DNA from: Candidatus Aenigmatarchaeota archaeon
Lineage (GTDB): Archaea; Aenigmatarchaeota; Aenigmatarchaeia; QMZP01; JAFGSV01
Direction of reading: 5' to 3'
NCBI GenBank assembly: GCA_016931255.1
Contig: JAFGFG010000007.1
Span: 1 to 54,904 of the forward strand
DNA length: 54,904 nt
Part shown: one piece after another, positions 48,087 to 53,767 of the stretch
Layout of the letters: each line of letters starts with the position of its first letter
Numbering within the stretch: the first letter of the stretch is position 1
Translations under genes and position numbers: made by a program
The notes under the pieces: generated by a model
Database searches by the model: none
Seen by the model: the letters and a program-made list of their open reading frames with translations, nothing else
Told to the model about the DNA's origin: nothing

Positions 48087-49070
48087 ATGACAAAGAAAAA
48101 CCTTTCAGGAATTGAGCAGCTTGTTCTGAGCAGACTTGAGATTGACTCCCGGATGCCGTTTTCAGGTATAGGGAAAAGCATAAGGAAGAGCCAGCAGCAG
48201 GTAAGCTACACAGTTGGGTCACTTACAGACAGGGGTTTGATAAGCCGCTTCATGTCACTGATAGACTACTCCAAATTCGGGGTGCTGAACTTCCGTGTAT
48301 ATTTTACGGTGAATTACATCGACAAGAGTAAATTCGATGAGCTTATAGACTATCTGGTGAAAGAGCCTCACACATCGTGGGTGGTCACGTGCGGAGGCCG
48401 GTATGACCTCATATGCTCATTCTTCGCGCCGAACCCGTCGCATTTCAGCAAGACACTAAGAACGTTCATGGAGCGGTTCCCGATGCAGCTGCAAAACTAC
48501 AGGGTACTGACAACAGTGGTTGTAAGGAAATTCGGAAGGAAGTACCTCCTCAAGAATCCGGGGATGCTTCAGGAGATTGTGATAGGCGGTGACAGCGAGA
48601 GGGAAGAAGTGGACAAGACTGATATACGCATACTGATGGAACTATCTGAAAATGCAAGGAAAAGCTCCGTGAGCATAGCGCAGGAGCTTTCGGTATCCAC
48701 GAAGACCGTGATAGACAGGATAAAAAAGCTTTACAAAAGGGGCATAATCAAGGGAGCCCGTCCGATTGTGAACATAAGAAAGACAGGATTCTCTCCGGGC
48801 CTCCTGATGGTGAAGTACCACAACATAACATCCGATGCTGAGAAGGAATTCATAGAGTACCTAAGAAGGCATCCCAATGTGAGGGGCATAGCCAAGACAC
48901 TTGGAGAATGGAACATGGAAATTTACTTAGAGGCGAAGGATGCCTTGGAGAAGAAGATGATAGAAATGGAAATAAGGCAGAGCTTCCCCTCGCTGATACA
49001 GCAGACAGAAAGCATTCCCCTGTACCAGACATACAAGAAGTGCTTCTTCCCGCGGTTTCTTGTCGACTGA
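48087..49070 (+). CDS. double Lrp/AsnC-type regulator
   Basis: A 327-residue protein with two Lrp-like modules. HTH one is near residues 5-50 (SGIEQLVLSRLEIDSRMPFSGIGKSI) followed by a RAM-like domain; HTH two starts near 177 (DKTDIRILMELSENARKSSVSIAQEL) with a second RAM-like part (GLLMVKYHN...). Tandem Lrp proteins are known in archaea. The TGA stop lies inside the left 9-bp target duplication of the mobile element, so the insertion left the coding sequence intact. Probably controls the divergent aminomutase. Confidence 0.82.
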   Translation: MTKKNLSGIEQLVLSRLEIDSRMPFSGIGKSIRKSQQQVSYTVGSLTDRGLISRFMSLIDYSKFGVLNFRVYFTVNYIDKSKFDELIDYLVKEPHTSWVVTCGGRYDLICSFFAPNPSHFSKTLRTFMERFPMQLQNYRVLTTVVVRKFGRKYLLKNPGMLQEIVIGGDSEREEVDKTDIRILMELSENARKSSVSIAQELSVSTKTVIDRIKKLYKRGIIKGARPIVNIRKTGFSPGLLMVKYHNITSDAEKEFIEYLRRHPNVRGIAKTLGEWNMEIYLEAKDALEKKMIEMEIRQSFPSLIQQTESIPLYQTYKKCFFPRFLVD

Positions 49071-49072
49071 CC

Positions 49073-49087
49073 GGCTTTGCACCCAAA
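49073..49087. repeat. left terminal inverted repeat of the element
   Basis: GGCTTTGCACCCAAA, perfect to the right end for the first 11 bases and 14 of 15 overall. Two further direct copies of the TTTRGGTGCA core follow at 49107-49117 and 49127-49137. Confidence 0.85.
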
Positions 49088-49153
49088 CCCCTGACTCACC
49101 CCCTACATTAGGTGCAAGTGCGGGACTTTGGGTGCAAGATGGTTTGTAAACAC

Positions 49154-49810
49154 CTAAACCTTTTTTTCAGTACTTCCTTTCTCCTTCTCACTCTCTTTTG
49201 GTGGATGGAGAATCAAATATTTTAGAAGCCAGTATAATACAAGCATGGTTGCGGTATAGAAAAATAACGAACCTATCAAATCCATAGCTGGGAGATATAT
49301 TCTGAAAATTGTCCAGTAACCTGTCGTTACAGCTATTCCGTATGGAAGATAGATTTTCACAAGGAAATTCTTCCAAGCTTCCGTTCTCATGTCATCCTCG
49401 TTGTCGACTATTTCGTTCCATAACTCTATTACTTCGTTAAATAGCTTCTTAACGTCCTTTAGTAACTGAGAAGATTCTGATATGTCTTCGAATTCATAAC
49501 TCTTTACAATCTCCTTGTGCTTTCTTCGGTACTTGTGCATCTTGGTCTTGTAAGATTTAACGGCAACCAGTGCTTTGGATAATGTTATTAGAACCTCCTC
49601 AATGTTCTCAATCTGTTCAAATATGTAATCCAACCATAACTCCATTCGAACCTCTTCAATCTTTTCTTCGGGAACCTTTTCGTTTTTGCAAGTACACATC
49701 TTGATTACTCTGTCATCCGTTTCTTTGAGGGCAGTATCAGTAGAATTATGTATGACATTCAAATCGTTCATAAGACTTGCAAGAAGTTCCTTTTTTACCA
49801 TTGCCACCAT
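49154..49810 (-). CDS. element passenger: coiled-coil membrane protein
   Basis: A 218-residue protein: a long charged helical region (about 1-150, with a CTCKNEK pair of cysteines) and two hydrophobic segments near the C-terminus (about 152-172 and 178-203), then a Lys/Glu-rich tail. Family unknown. The start region overlaps the stop of the 35-residue frame upstream, with a second ATG at 49801, so initiation may be coupled. It ends 81 nt from the left tip. Confidence 0.55.
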   Translation of the reverse strand: MVAMVKKELLASLMNDLNVIHNSTDTALKETDDRVIKMCTCKNEKVPEEKIEEVRMELWLDYIFEQIENIEEVLITLSKALVAVKSYKTKMHKYRRKHKEIVKSYEFEDISESSQLLKDVKKLFNEVIELWNEIVDNEDDMRTEAWKNFLVKIYLPYGIAVTTGYWTIFRIYLPAMDLIGSLFFYTATMLVLYWLLKYLILHPPKESEKEKGSTEKKV

Positions 49811-49902
49811 TCCCTTTTCTTTCTTTTCTTCTTTTTTGGTGGAGCCATAGTAGAATCATTATTGCCTTGATTAATATTAATGTCAGTTTCTACATCGCAC
49901 AT
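49795..49902 (-). CDS. element passenger: 35-residue lysine-rich small protein
   Basis: A 35-codon frame with a near-perfect ribosome site GGAGGTGA 5 nt before its ATG, the strongest in this region. The product starts MCDVETDININ and ends in a basic stretch PPKKKKRKKREWWQW. It overlaps the start of the 218-residue gene out of frame, an arrangement for translational coupling. Function unknown. Confidence 0.5.
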   Translation of the reverse strand: MCDVETDININQGNNDSTMAPPKKKKRKKREWWQW

Positions 49903-49996
49903 TTAAGTCACCTCCCTAATCCATTATCAGAAGTATAGCTTTCGCTGTGAGAGGTTACTTCACGCCAATAGAGAGTTGTATCTTTGATTTAAATCT

Positions 49997-51187
49997 TTAG
50001 TCGAAGCTCGGAGAAACGCCAAGCTCGTGCATCTCGTGTATTAAGACCACTATGTTGTGTGCGATGAACTTGCAAAGAAGCTCGTTCACCTGTGCCGTCC
50101 AGTTCTTGCTTTTCAGCTTGTCCCCGAATTTCGCCTTGACCATGTTGAAGGTGCTTTCCACGTTGCTCCTGTCATGGTAATGACCCATGAACTCGTCCCT
50201 GTTGAACTGGAAAAAGTGATACATCTTCTTCCATGTGTATGACCCCCTCGAAAGTCCCGTGCTGTTGGACTTGAACGGAATGTAAGCCTCTGCTCCAATC
50301 TTCGTTGCCGTGTTGTAGTTCTCCCTGCTCGAATATCCCATGTCAGCCGTTACCTTCTCTATCGTGAAGCCGTTGTCGTGTGCCTCGGTGACAAGCGGGA
50401 CGAACTGCGGGCAGTCGGCACTGTTCTCCTCTCCAATCTTCGCACCGACTATCACATTGGTCTTCGTTCCCGTCAGTATGTGAGCCTTCACCCACTTGTG
50501 CTTTCTCATGGTTCCGTATTTCTCGACTGCATACTGCCCGAACTTGCTCGTGCGGAAGCCGGAGCTGTCAGGGGCAAAGCTCGTCTCTATGCTTCTCAGG
50601 GGAAGTGCGGATATTGTCAGAAGCTTCTCCAGTATCGGCGTCATGTCCTTCCTGTTGAGCATCTTCCCCACGGCATTGAAGTGAGGAGTGTGGCTAATTT
50701 GTTCCCTCTCCTCTGCGTTCCTGTAAAGCGAGTGTGCCCTTCTCTGTGACAACTGGGAATAAACCTTCTGTATCGAGCAGAATGCAGTCTCGTTGAGGCT
50801 CAGCCGTGGGCGTCCCATGACCTGCTTCTGTTCGGGTATTATGGCGACCAATTCCTTAAGGAGTGTGTCAAAAAGGCGAACCTCCGAGGTCTGAGCCTTG
50901 TTGTATGCTTTCCAGTCCTGCGGGTATGTCATTCTTACAGCCTTCGTGACCGTCACGTTGCCCTGCTCGTCCTTGACCTCGTGGTAGAAGTATTTTACCG
51001 CCCACTGGTGCTTGCATTCAAGCCCCCTGCTCTGGCAGTCGGGGCAGTCGCATTTAGTTCCCATGCCCTCTTTATACACCAAATAAGCCCCGTTCCCGCT
51101 CTGGGAAGGGACTATCCAGCCTTTAGGCGTTTCCCTTATTCCTCCGTTCTTTGCGATTTCAAGACCCTTTAGTTGCCTCATATCCAT
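49997..51187 (-). CDS. DDE transposase with N-terminal SWIM zinc finger
   Basis: Catalyses movement of the element. I start at ATG 51187, 6 nt after GGTG; frames to 51196 are open. The SWIM finger CDC...CKH (C46, C48, C58, H60) is followed by an IS4/IS5-type catalytic domain with D207 (APDSSG), D282 (TADMGYSS) and E344 (DRSNVESTFNMVKAKF). About 396 residues, no frame break. A SWIM finger fused to a DDE domain is seen in some archaeal transposases. A 9-bp duplication fits the IS4 group better than IS5. Confidence 0.88.
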   Translation of the reverse strand: MDMRQLKGLEIAKNGGIRETPKGWIVPSQSGNGAYLVYKEGMGTKCDCPDCQSRGLECKHQWAVKYFYHEVKDEQGNVTVTKAVRMTYPQDWKAYNKAQTSEVRLFDTLLKELVAIIPEQKQVMGRPRLSLNETAFCSIQKVYSQLSQRRAHSLYRNAEEREQISHTPHFNAVGKMLNRKDMTPILEKLLTISALPLRSIETSFAPDSSGFRTSKFGQYAVEKYGTMRKHKWVKAHILTGTKTNVIVGAKIGEENSADCPQFVPLVTEAHDNGFTIEKVTADMGYSSRENYNTATKIGAEAYIPFKSNSTGLSRGSYTWKKMYHFFQFNRDEFMGHYHDRSNVESTFNMVKAKFGDKLKSKNWTAQVNELLCKFIAHNIVVLIHEMHELGVSPSFD

Positions 51188-51196
51188 ACGCATCAC

Positions 51197-51298
51197 CTAT
51201 ACCTTTAATCACTACCTATAGGTATATTGTATGCAAAGCTTTAAATACTTATCGGTATATATACTAATTATGATTAATTATGATAAGAGGTAATAGGT
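51197..51298. promoter_or_regulatory. divergent control region inside the element
   Basis: A 100-nt AT-rich region between the transposase and the passenger genes on the right. It holds the palindrome ACCTATAGGT and a TTTAAATACTT TATA-like element for rightward or leftward promoters. Either could serve as operator. Confidence 0.4.
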
Positions 51299-51478
51299 AT
51301 GAAATTAACATGTCCACACTGCGATAAGGAGTTCGACCTCAAGCTGAAATGCAAGAGATGTGGTCATGAATGGGTACCTCGTGACGAAAGGCCCCCAAAG
51401 GTCTGCCCGAACCCTAAATGCAAGAGCCCATACTGGGACAGGCCTCGAAAAAGGCTCATTAAGAAAAAAGGTGACTGA
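51299..51478 (+). CDS. element passenger: 59-residue zinc-ribbon protein
   Basis: ATG at 51299, stop at 51476-51478. Three pairs of cysteines: CPHC (C5, C8), CKRC (C18, C21) and CPNPKC (C36, C41), with a basic C-terminus PRKRLIKKKGD. A double or split zinc ribbon; likely a nucleic-acid-binding accessory or regulator. It starts a plus-strand group with the 211-residue gene 2 nt downstream. Confidence 0.65.
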   Translation: MKLTCPHCDKEFDLKLKCKRCGHEWVPRDERPPKVCPNPKCKSPYWDRPRKRLIKKKGD

Positions 51479-51480
51479 CA

Positions 51481-52116
51481 GTGGGAATAATTGAAACGTT
51501 ACAAGTAATATTCAATGACGCTTTTGTGCGGATAATGGGTGGTATAGGTGTATTAATAGCAACTACACTGATTCAGTACAAATTCAGGCTCGTTCAGAGA
51601 GTTAAGAAACTCTGCACCTTCGCTATGAATCGTGCAGTGAAAATCGGGCTCGTGATAACAATAAAAACCGACATGAAGCCGAAAGATGTCGGAACAAAAA
51701 TCGGGGACAAATGGCATTCAGAAGGCAAGCGAGTGCGGATAATAACGGATTCGAGGAGTGCCTACAATCTTGATAATGGAGATTACGTCGTTGATATTTA
51801 CCAACTACCAGATAAGCAGTTGGGTGTGAAGACATCTAACATCGAAACACCAATACGGGAAGTAGATGACAAGTTTACCGAAATAATAGACCTTTTCGAG
51901 AGATTGGACGGAATCAAAATGGACAGTATTGGGCTCACTGCACTTCTACCATTCAAATTCGAGTTAGTAGAGATAAAAACGACATCGGGCATAGCTATCG
52001 AGGATTATGACATTAAGCTTAAGAATGATAAGTGGAAATCCGAGATTTACCTTAAGCTCAGAGACAAGAAGTCACCCTTAATGGTGCTACACCATCTGGA
52101 ATGTTTCAATCGATAA
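51481..52116 (+). CDS. element passenger: membrane-anchored protein, 211 residues
   Basis: GTG start with GGTGA 6 nt upstream. Residues about 15-32 (FVRIMGGIGVLIATTLIQY) form one membrane helix; the rest is a soluble alpha/beta domain with no family I recognise. Follows the zinc-ribbon gene. CGN arginine codons are frequent, unlike host genes that favour AGG/AGA. Confidence 0.55.
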   Translation: MGIIETLQVIFNDAFVRIMGGIGVLIATTLIQYKFRLVQRVKKLCTFAMNRAVKIGLVITIKTDMKPKDVGTKIGDKWHSEGKRVRIITDSRSAYNLDNGDYVVDIYQLPDKQLGVKTSNIETPIREVDDKFTEIIDLFERLDGIKMDSIGLTALLPFKFELVEIKTTSGIAIEDYDIKLKNDKWKSEIYLKLRDKKSPLMVLHHLECFNR

Positions 52117-52169
52117 GAGGCATGTTTAAACTAATATAGTTTTTTAAAACCTACCCATAATCTCCTATT

Positions 52170-52859
52170 ATGGGTATATCAGTGGCGTTCTTGAAGCCAA
52201 TAATTTTCGATTTGTCGAAAAAACTCGAATTGAAGGACAAGCTCATCATTTCAAGAGACAACCAAGTGACTATCCACCATTTCGGTGATACAGGGCTCCC
52301 CGTTCCGCAGACCATAATAAGTCTGAAGTCTCTTGGTGATAGATTTGAGGTTTACGATGTAACCCATTGGTCTAATACAATAGAAGAGCCAATTCGATTA
52401 TGGGACAAATACACAGACGAGTACGGGAAATACCAAAAGAAGATGATTTTTGAAATAATATACGATAAGAAAACCCGCGAAGCTTACATAACGGCACCGA
52501 AAGACACGACAAATGAATTTCTACAGAGAGCCAACGCATTGAGTTATCTAAAGCTTGAACGATACCCATTCAATCTGAATATAAAAAAGGTACCCGAAAT
52601 CCTAAACATATACGGGAAGTGGTGCAGGACAGACAAGGGAAATATAAGATGTGAAGCTAAGTTCGGTTTCGATGTTCATACCAACTCCACCGATGGTGAG
52701 ACGACAACACTGAACATGCAAGTCAGAACGGAATCTGGTGAATGCGACATTACAATATCGAGAGAAGGTCAGATAAGCAGCCATACGAAATCGGTAACAG
52801 TAAATCATGTGATAGAATTTTATCATTTAATAAAGTTAGACCTACTATCACCGCTTTAA
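52170..52859 (+). CDS. element passenger: hypothetical protein, 229 residues
   Basis: A soluble-looking protein with an alternating beta-rich middle (KKMIFEIIYDKKTREAYITA) and no known motif. The stop codon is embedded in the first right-end repeat (52855-52865). Whether it is a defence, control or transfer gene cannot be said. Confidence 0.5.
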   Translation: MGISVAFLKPIIFDLSKKLELKDKLIISRDNQVTIHHFGDTGLPVPQTIISLKSLGDRFEVYDVTHWSNTIEEPIRLWDKYTDEYGKYQKKMIFEIIYDKKTREAYITAPKDTTNEFLQRANALSYLKLERYPFNLNIKKVPEILNIYGKWCRTDKGNIRCEAKFGFDVHTNSTDGETTTLNMQVRTESGECDITISREGQISSHTKSVTVNHVIEFYHLIKLDLLSPL

Positions 52860-52907
52860 GTGCAGACCTCATACTTTAGGTGCAGAATCTACTTTAGGTG
52901 CAAAGCC
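52855..52907. repeat. right end repeats and terminal inverted repeat
   Basis: Three direct copies of TTTARGTGCA at 52855-52865, 52875-52885 and 52893-52903, spaced 20 and 18 nt. The last one is part of the terminal inverted repeat (52893-52907). Confidence 0.75.
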
Positions 52908-52990
52908 CGACTGACCACTACCTTTATATTATAAAGGGCCAAATATAACGAAAATTATTAATAACTGTTCATAATATAAGATGTGTTGAT

Positions 52991-53767
52991 ATGTTAGCGG
53001 AAAGAACTGAGTACCTCTCATCTGGGGTCCACATAGGGATGAAGTCTTGCACGAAGTACCTGAAGCAGTTCGTGTACAAGATAAGGGATGACGGCCTTGC
53101 GGTCTTCAATCTCAGGAAGGTGGACAGCAGAATAGCCATAGCTGCCAATTTCATATCTCAGTTCGACAATGTTCTCATAGTTTCAAGAAAAGGCAATGCC
53201 GCTGACGCGATACTCAAGTTCGCGGAGATAACAGGCGCAAAGGCCATTGCAGGCCGTTTCTCACCCGGAACCCTTACCAATCCTTCCTACAGAGACTTCT
53301 TCGAGCCGGATGTTGTCATATCAATAGACCCACTCGTCGACGAGAACGCAATAAAGGAAGCCAAGAAGAAAAGGATACCGATGATTGCATTCTGCGACAC
53401 ATTCAACGAGGCTACGGACATAGACCTCGTGATTCCTATCAACAACAACGGGAAGAAGGCACTGGCACTTGTGCTCATGCTTCTCTCAAAGGAGATTCTT
53501 AGGAAGAGGGGCAAGCTCAAGAAGGATTCTGATTTCAAGTACACTGTGGAAGACTTCGGTGGCGAGCTGCCGCAGGAAAGACCCAGGACAGAGCCGGCTG
53601 GAAAGCCGAGGTACGATAAAGGGGAAGCGAAGGCTGTAAAGACTGAGAAGAAGGCAGAGGAAAAGCCGAAGGTTGTAAAGAAGGAAGTGAAGCCAGCGAA
53701 GAAATCCGGGGAAAAGCCGAAAGCAGTGAAGAAGACTGCCAGGAAGGCAGCTAAGAAGAGTGAATGA
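52991..53767 (+). CDS. rps2: 30S ribosomal protein uS2, with long Lys/Ala tail
   Basis: Small-subunit protein. Residues 1 to about 195 are the archaeal uS2 fold (EYLSSGVHIGMKSCTKYLKQFVYKIRDDGLAVFN, then AGRFSPGTLTNPSYRDFFEPDVVISIDP). The last 60 residues are a Lys/Ala/Glu tail with repeats like EKPKVVKKEVKPAKK, beyond usual uS2. TATA TTATAAAG (about 52928-52936) precedes it, immediately right of the mobile element, so the insertion may affect expression. Followed by eL19 with 4-nt overlap. Confidence 0.95.
   Translation: MLAERTEYLSSGVHIGMKSCTKYLKQFVYKIRDDGLAVFNLRKVDSRIAIAANFISQFDNVLIVSRKGNAADAILKFAEITGAKAIAGRFSPGTLTNPSYRDFFEPDVVISIDPLVDENAIKEAKKKRIPMIAFCDTFNEATDIDLVIPINNNGKKALALVLMLLSKEILRKRGKLKKDSDFKYTVEDFGGELPQERPRTEPAGKPRYDKGEAKAVKTEKKAEEKPKVVKKEVKPAKKSGEKPKAVKKTARKAAKKSE

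Follow-up and report, generated by a model that had tools for sequence, protein, structure and literature searches.

What kind of element separates the gene for an Lrp-like regulator from that for ribosomal protein S2 (rpS2) in a Candidatus Aenigmatarchaeota archaeon (assembly GCA_016931255.1, contig JAFGFG010000007.1; the 54,904 nucleotides analysed are called the window), and what might its genes do? The original prediction, made from the sequence, saw there a complete transposon with five unrecognised passenger genes and suggested an undescribed element type. Here we report that the element is, as judged from its sequence, an intact DDE transposon of IS903 type (IS5 family) that carries passengers. 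The best explanation overall, which we consider likely, is that this IS903-type passenger transposon belongs to an always-loaded lineage enriched in defence genes, with two of its genes, P4 and P5, forming a two-gene defence or addiction module.

The element occupies positions 49073-52907 (3835 bp) between the copies of its target site duplication (TSD), CGACTGACC, a 9-mer found only twice in the window, each time directly outside a terminal inverted repeat (TIR; Table 1). The TIR sequence GGCTTTGCACC likewise has just two copies in the window, and none of 100 shuffled sequences held two. The motif TWRGGTGCA has five matches in the whole window, three at the left end and two at the right, lying no further than about 65 bp from the left end and 32 bp from the right; five matches anywhere were reached in 1 of 100 shuffles, a figure that is somewhat flattering because the motif was picked after the sites had been seen. 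The shorter motif TWGGTGCA was too loose for significance and was replaced by this one. Coordinates and motif counts confirm all of the anatomy originally described (9-bp duplication, 11-bp ends, ordered subterminal repeats and intact transposase), and with five open reading frames (ORFs), as first listed, inside one TIR/TSD pair, the view of a complete transposon with passengers is borne out.

Insertion took place two bases beyond the lrp stop codon, which itself lies within the TSD, and for this reason both neighbouring genes are unbroken. When empty sites were sought, as the original prediction had proposed, two congeners (G107 and G108) were found to have the lrp-like gene and rpS2 about 93-112 bp apart with no element between them, and with the same rpS2 promoter sequence as beside the window element; removal of the element and one duplication from the window predicts a gap of 76 bp. 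Since the element has a copy number of one in its genome, there is no second copy to confirm its ends, and two unrelated repeats or a misassembly might in principle mimic a single insertion. Such an artefact is nevertheless vanishingly improbable given an exact TSD outside an exact TIR, the empty site in two congeners and 38 relatives of the same anatomy.

The transposase ORF is open and matches Pfam DDE_Tnp_1 at 1.8e-22, and D210, D285 and E347 are kept in 38-39 of 39 relatives. NCBIfam IS5_2 (NF033579) was the best model for every lineage member tested, and this same IS5-family model matches an IS903-group transposase at 352 bits. A profile of the 39 relatives aligned with the IS903-group transposase at an hhalign probability of 98.8 over 275 columns, and hmmsearch matched that transposase to the family profile at 1.7e-24. 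IS903B has ends GGCTTTGTTGAATAAATC and 9-bp direct repeats (PMC10569121), and the ends of several relatives read GGCTTTGTTTAATAAGT or AGCTTTGTTGAATAAGT. Transposase, ends and 9-bp duplication therefore place the element on the IS903 side of the IS5 family. With IS903 and IS903B it shares a DDE transposase homologous across the whole catalytic region, GGCTTTG ends and 9-bp repeats (PMC10569121), whereas the internal end sequence is unlike theirs and the window transposase has about 90 additional N-terminal residues that include a SWIM finger. This finger scores 15.4 against a Pfam cut-off of 19.6 bits, with the CxC...CxH pattern present, and the extension that bears it is missing in some relatives (e.g., L133). 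IS903 itself is about 1.06 kb long, with the transposase as its sole gene, while the window element is loaded with passengers. No TnsABCDE-type machinery was seen in the window element, where the only recombinase is of the DDE_Tnp_1/IS5 type; it is not a Tn7-like transposon, having no TnsB-type transposase with TnsA/TnsC partners, nor a composite one, having one transposase gene and ends without long repeats. The transposase would bind the TWRGGTGCA repeats at both ends, and would then excise the element and insert it at 9-bp staggered cuts by cut-and-paste.

Searches with differing E-value limits found relatives of the transposase in the window's phylum (22 of 156 genomes), in a sample from the phylum to which G157, a Woesearchaeota genome, belongs (37 of 371) and in an Acidobacteria sample (3 of 227), as well as in one Methanosarcinales metagenome-assembled genome (MAG) and one viral contig. 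At 39 of the 71 transposase loci an element could be delimited by GGCTTTG-like ends lying inside an exact 9-bp duplication (score >=26), and these 39 come from two DPANN phyla, from Methanosarcinales and Acidobacteria and from the viral contig; among the remaining 32 loci are fragments, decayed copies and contig ends. Of 2931 chimeric controls, each joining a left flank to the right flank of a different locus, 72 gave weak matches and none (0/2931) reached a score of 26. The delimited elements measure 2350-8829 bp. Because the transposase gene takes up only about 1.2 kb, every one of them holds extra DNA, and no bare insertion sequence (IS) was found among the 39.

The cargo of these elements (120 ORFs) was compared with their flanks (114 ORFs). 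The cargo includes 11 members of Pfam N6_Mtase, six C5 methylases, six PD-(D/E)XK proteins, four N6_N4, three Vsr, three Methylase_S, two GmrSD and one DarT, while the flanks hold tRNA synthetases, glycosyltransferases and the like, every family with at most two members. PADLOC gave 332 matched models in the cargo, with up to 10 members each, against 58 in the flanks, with at most one member each among the matches listed. By motif, at least 15 of the 39 elements have a DNA methyltransferase, a lower bound because the type III methyltransferase of L115 escaped the motif search, compared with 1 of 116 flanking ORFs. The cargo of the lineage is enriched in restriction-modification (RM) and defence genes relative to its flanks. 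The lone flanking methyltransferase adjoins its own zinc ribbon and a second transposase, in L060; that stretch (L060:13916-14999), where the zinc ribbon lies upstream of an N6/N4 methyltransferase and the second transposase, of the same family, downstream, is probably another, undelimited element.

A simple IS903-type IS that captured host genes at random, its passengers being neutral hitchhikers, would account for cargo that varies between elements and for genes that are not recognisably defensive, such as a serine protease in L032 and lipoprotein-like genes in L053. We regard it as very improbable in view of the strong RM/defence enrichment over local flanking genes across 39 elements, the finding of zero bare copies, and the presence of one cassette of a zinc-ribbon gene (ZnR), P4 and P5 in two distant transposase branches.

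ISs with passenger genes have been named "transporter IS" (tIS) (PMC3129680), and occur only occasionally within IS families, the IS6 family for instance having just one (PMC7986276). The window element resembles them in having an IS-type transposase and ends around unrelated passenger genes (PMC3129680, PMC7986276): the passengers lie between its own ends, and P4-P5 also exists without the transposon. It differs in that every delimited member of its lineage has passengers, mainly defence genes. Given the placement on the IS903 side and the tIS concept, the transposon is therefore not a new element type, as had been suggested, although, applied to the lineage and its cargo slot, the phrase may turn out to be fair. 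The literature searched, with subscription papers and ISfinder outside its scope, held no description of an always-loaded, defence-enriched lineage, and this defence-shuttling tIS lineage is apparently undescribed so far. Tn7-like transposons also have defence cargo, and 96% carry cargo (Benler et al. 2021; PMC8649781). Shuttling of defence genes, repeated binding sites at the ends (putative here) and variable cargo are common to both (PMC8649781), whereas the present elements have one IS903-type transposase, a 9-bp duplication and a size of just 2.4-8.8 kb. The casposons and cryptic integrated elements of Thaumarchaeota, also archaeal, integrated and in some cases with RM genes, are multigene elements based on Cas1 or an integrase; IS-like transposons typically have 1-2 genes (PMC6563490). 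A compact, readily delimited lineage with one transposase, a 9-bp duplication and GGCTTTG ends, loaded so regularly with such cargo, would help explain the spread of RM and defence genes among small DPANN genomes.

Within the element, the transposase gene and ZnR diverge from a common intergenic region. Twelve other loci have a ZnR relative next to the transposase, and the arrangement is divergent in 13 of 13, the window included. In seven loci (L039, L054, L108, L109, L112, L115 and L142) the gene that follows ZnR in the operon is a methyltransferase, the calls in L109, L112 and L142 being judged from sequence; P4-P5 follows ZnR in the window, and its slot is the position of the DNA methyltransferase in sister elements. 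A divergent promoter would serve the transposase on one side and the ZnR-cargo operon on the other, and the element would thereby pay its way through defence genes. ZnR, which is absent from most elements and present in unrelated viral contigs, could be either cargo or a transposon accessory.

P4 lies beside P5 at every occurrence (five places and one degenerate, in three phyla). Besides the window, adjacent homologues are found in L133, where an element of 4239 bp, bounded by a TSD of its own (CGAGCGCAA), also contains ZnR and a fused DarT-DarG. Profile searches added a pair near Fic-like and IS1-like genes (L148), a pair adjoining type III Res and Mod, its P4 truncated by the contig end (L149), and a remnant beside an RM gene (L150); a further pair (L170) is in a genome of the phylum of the Methanosarcinales MAG. 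In the window's own phylum only the window's copies were found, and neither phage and plasmid records (query, L133 P5) nor viral contigs (query, the P5 profile) gave any match to P5. The two genes are co-directional in transposons and convergent elsewhere, as in the stand-alone P5/P4 pairs at L148:5824-7725 and L170:8071-9571, outside recognised elements of the lineage. Whether all passengers invariably accompany this transposase, a check proposed in the original prediction, is accordingly answered in the negative for P4-P5. P4-P5 is present in 2 of the 39 delimited elements, and the transposases of these two carriers are far apart in the tree; the cassette has therefore been exchanged between branches or repeatedly lost.

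A structural model of P5, with a predicted local distance difference test (pLDDT) score of 71, returned RdgC, a recombination-associated DNA clamp, at ranks 1-3 in a Foldseek search of the PDB (probability 0.97-0.99), and phage RdgC is among its top matches in a viral structure library. P5 differs from RdgC in being shorter, archaeal, paired with P4 and without significant sequence similarity. Profiles of P4 and P5 gave no convincing match to PDB sequences. For P4, a fold of AdoMetDC/TBP-like two-layer sheets was considered and dropped, since the TM-scores lie below 0.4 and are not interpretable. On enterobacterial plasmids (records H2-H8 and H12) rdgC commonly overlaps or abuts a Dam-family methyltransferase gene.

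Based on position and neighbours (DarTG, type III RM, an RM remnant and Fic), P4-P5 may be a candidate new defence module, in which two genes in the methyltransferase slot would act in defence or addiction. P5, given its predicted RdgC-like fold, would act as a clamp on DNA that is foreign or being replicated, and P4, which its N-terminal helix would anchor in the membrane, would sense or execute; P2, with its coiled coil and hydrophobic C-terminus, may be a membrane effector, in place of which the sister element at L133 has DarTG. A more far-reaching form of this proposal, that the obligatorily loaded IS903-derived lineage is a dedicated defence-gene shuttle in DPANN and beyond and P4-P5 a new antiviral system of an RdgC-like clamp and a membrane-tethered partner, we put forward only tentatively, leaning somewhat against it. 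Element ends offer an annotation-free route to new defence systems, with genes of no known family between them as suspects by position; in the present analysis, P4-P5 is the first concrete candidate to come out of it.

Two other roles for these genes have to be weighed. The constant two-gene pairing, the small size, the DarTG and Fic modules among the neighbours and the probable membrane anchor of one partner are all consistent with a toxin-antitoxin (TA)-like addiction pair that stabilises the transposon and is not antiviral; we think this rather unlikely, as neither protein resembles TA families in Pfam or PADLOC, and the two genes differ between loci in order and orientation, as a co-regulated TA pair seldom would. 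Because many defence systems are TA-like, the two readings overlap. Alternatively, P4-P5 and ZnR could be transposition accessories (regulators, target selectors or end-binding proteins) and not cargo, as the constant divergence of ZnR from the transposase and the predicted DNA-binding type of fold of P5 might suggest. The rarity of P4-P5 among the elements, its occurrence in L148 and L170 without this transposase or its ends, and the patchy distribution of ZnR, which extends to unrelated viral contigs, make an accessory role for P4-P5 and ZnR together decidedly unlikely; ZnR by itself may still be an accessory.

Several results weigh against our preferred explanation, a defence-enriched passenger transposon with P4-P5 as its module. 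The window transposase scores 121 bits on IS5_2, under the 140-bit cut-off, with one relative passing it (L051, 141.5) and another at 135 (L054). The case for P4-P5 rests on six occurrences, and the L170 pair is without a defence neighbour. The match of P5 to RdgC has a TM-score of only about 0.43; by sequence there was no Pfam RdgC match, and comparison with E. coli RdgC and six plasmid RdgCs was not significant (hhalign P=0.16). The P4 model is uninformative on fold, and its N-terminal helix, hydrophobic in three of four homologues, is weak in that of L133. P2, P4 and P5 fall outside the PADLOC models: none of P2, ZnR, P4, P5 and the homologues tested had a match at E<=0.1, and hence none matches a described anti-phage system. 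Homology searches found no convincing relatives of P2 or of the small basic peptide encoded beside it.

Table 1. Features of the element, its insertion site and recurrent cargo (window positions unless a locus is given)
Feature	Position	Strand	Remark
Left target duplication CGACTGACC, 9 bp	49064..49072	+	Overlaps lrp stop TGA 49068-49070
Left TIR GGCTTTGCACC, 11 bp, perfect	49073..49083	+	IS903-type end
Subterminal repeat TTGGGTGCA	49078..49086	-	Overlaps TIR; probable transposase-binding site
Subterminal repeat TTAGGTGCA	49108..49116	+	Motif scan
Subterminal repeat TTGGGTGCA	49128..49136	+	Motif scan
P2, 218-aa helical/coiled-coil protein, C-terminal hydrophobic segment(s)	49154..49810	-
35-aa basic peptide ORF	49795..49902	-	Strong Shine-Dalgarno; overlaps P2 start
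DDE transposase, IS903-type catalytic domain, 399 aa	49997..51196	-	D210, D285, E347
SWIM zinc finger, transposase N-terminus, residues 39-70	50987..51082	-	Sub-threshold Pfam match and CxC...CxH
Predicted divergent promoter region, transposase versus cargo operon	51197..51298	.	Gene layout
ZnR, 59-aa zinc-ribbon protein	51299..51478	+	Conserved divergent partner of transposase
P4, 211 aa, N-terminal hydrophobic helix and alpha/beta domain	51481..52116	+	Constant partner of P5
P5, 229-aa soluble protein, predicted RdgC-like (DNA clamp) fold	52170..52859	+	Constant partner of P4
Subterminal repeat TTAGGTGCA	52876..52884	+	Motif scan
Subterminal repeat TTAGGTGCA	52894..52902	+	Overlaps TIR
Right TIR GGCTTTGCACC, inverted	52897..52907	-	Perfect 11-bp match
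Right target duplication CGACTGACC, 9 bp	52908..52916	+	Exact match to left copy
Host flank: Lrp-like two-unit regulator	48087..49070	+	Intact
Host flank: ribosomal protein S2 (rpS2)	52991..53767	+	Own promoter kept downstream of element
PD-(D/E)XK-type recurrent cargo	L047:8999-9766, L110:4059-4715, L116:3973-4620, L124:12748-13407

That the five passengers are unrecognised holds for Pfam, NCBIfam, PADLOC and PHROGs, where only sub-threshold zinc-ribbon matches appeared, but three of the five do have relatives. A single weak match of P2 (E=0.0025) was of the coiled-coil type and is not taken as homology. The 35-aa peptide, whose start lies 8 nt downstream of a GGAGG Shine-Dalgarno sequence, is likely a translationally coupled leader of P2.

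Some further cargo recurs among the elements. A C5 methyltransferase, a Vsr-like endonuclease and a GHKL-ATPase protein co-occur at L119:3201-7457 and L124:9583-14713, which suggests a composite system of RM type common to both. A PD-(D/E)XK-type protein of Cas4-like appearance, with an N-terminal motif like SPSSLNLMGECPRCFWL, is found repeatedly near methyltransferases inside elements (Table 1), and a second small CxxC protein (CPFCxxGxI...CxxCxK) is cargo in three (L047:12634-12927, L051:4209-4487 and L054:6222-6452). At L051:8617-10024 a DUF4747 protein lies beside a multi-pass membrane protein within the element, a layout that recalls P4-P5; on comparison, the DUF4747 protein had no similarity to P5. 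GmrSD_N (DUF262-type) proteins of much the same appearance are present in two elements (L105:3690-4766 and L138:12141-13217), hinting at a recent exchange of cargo.

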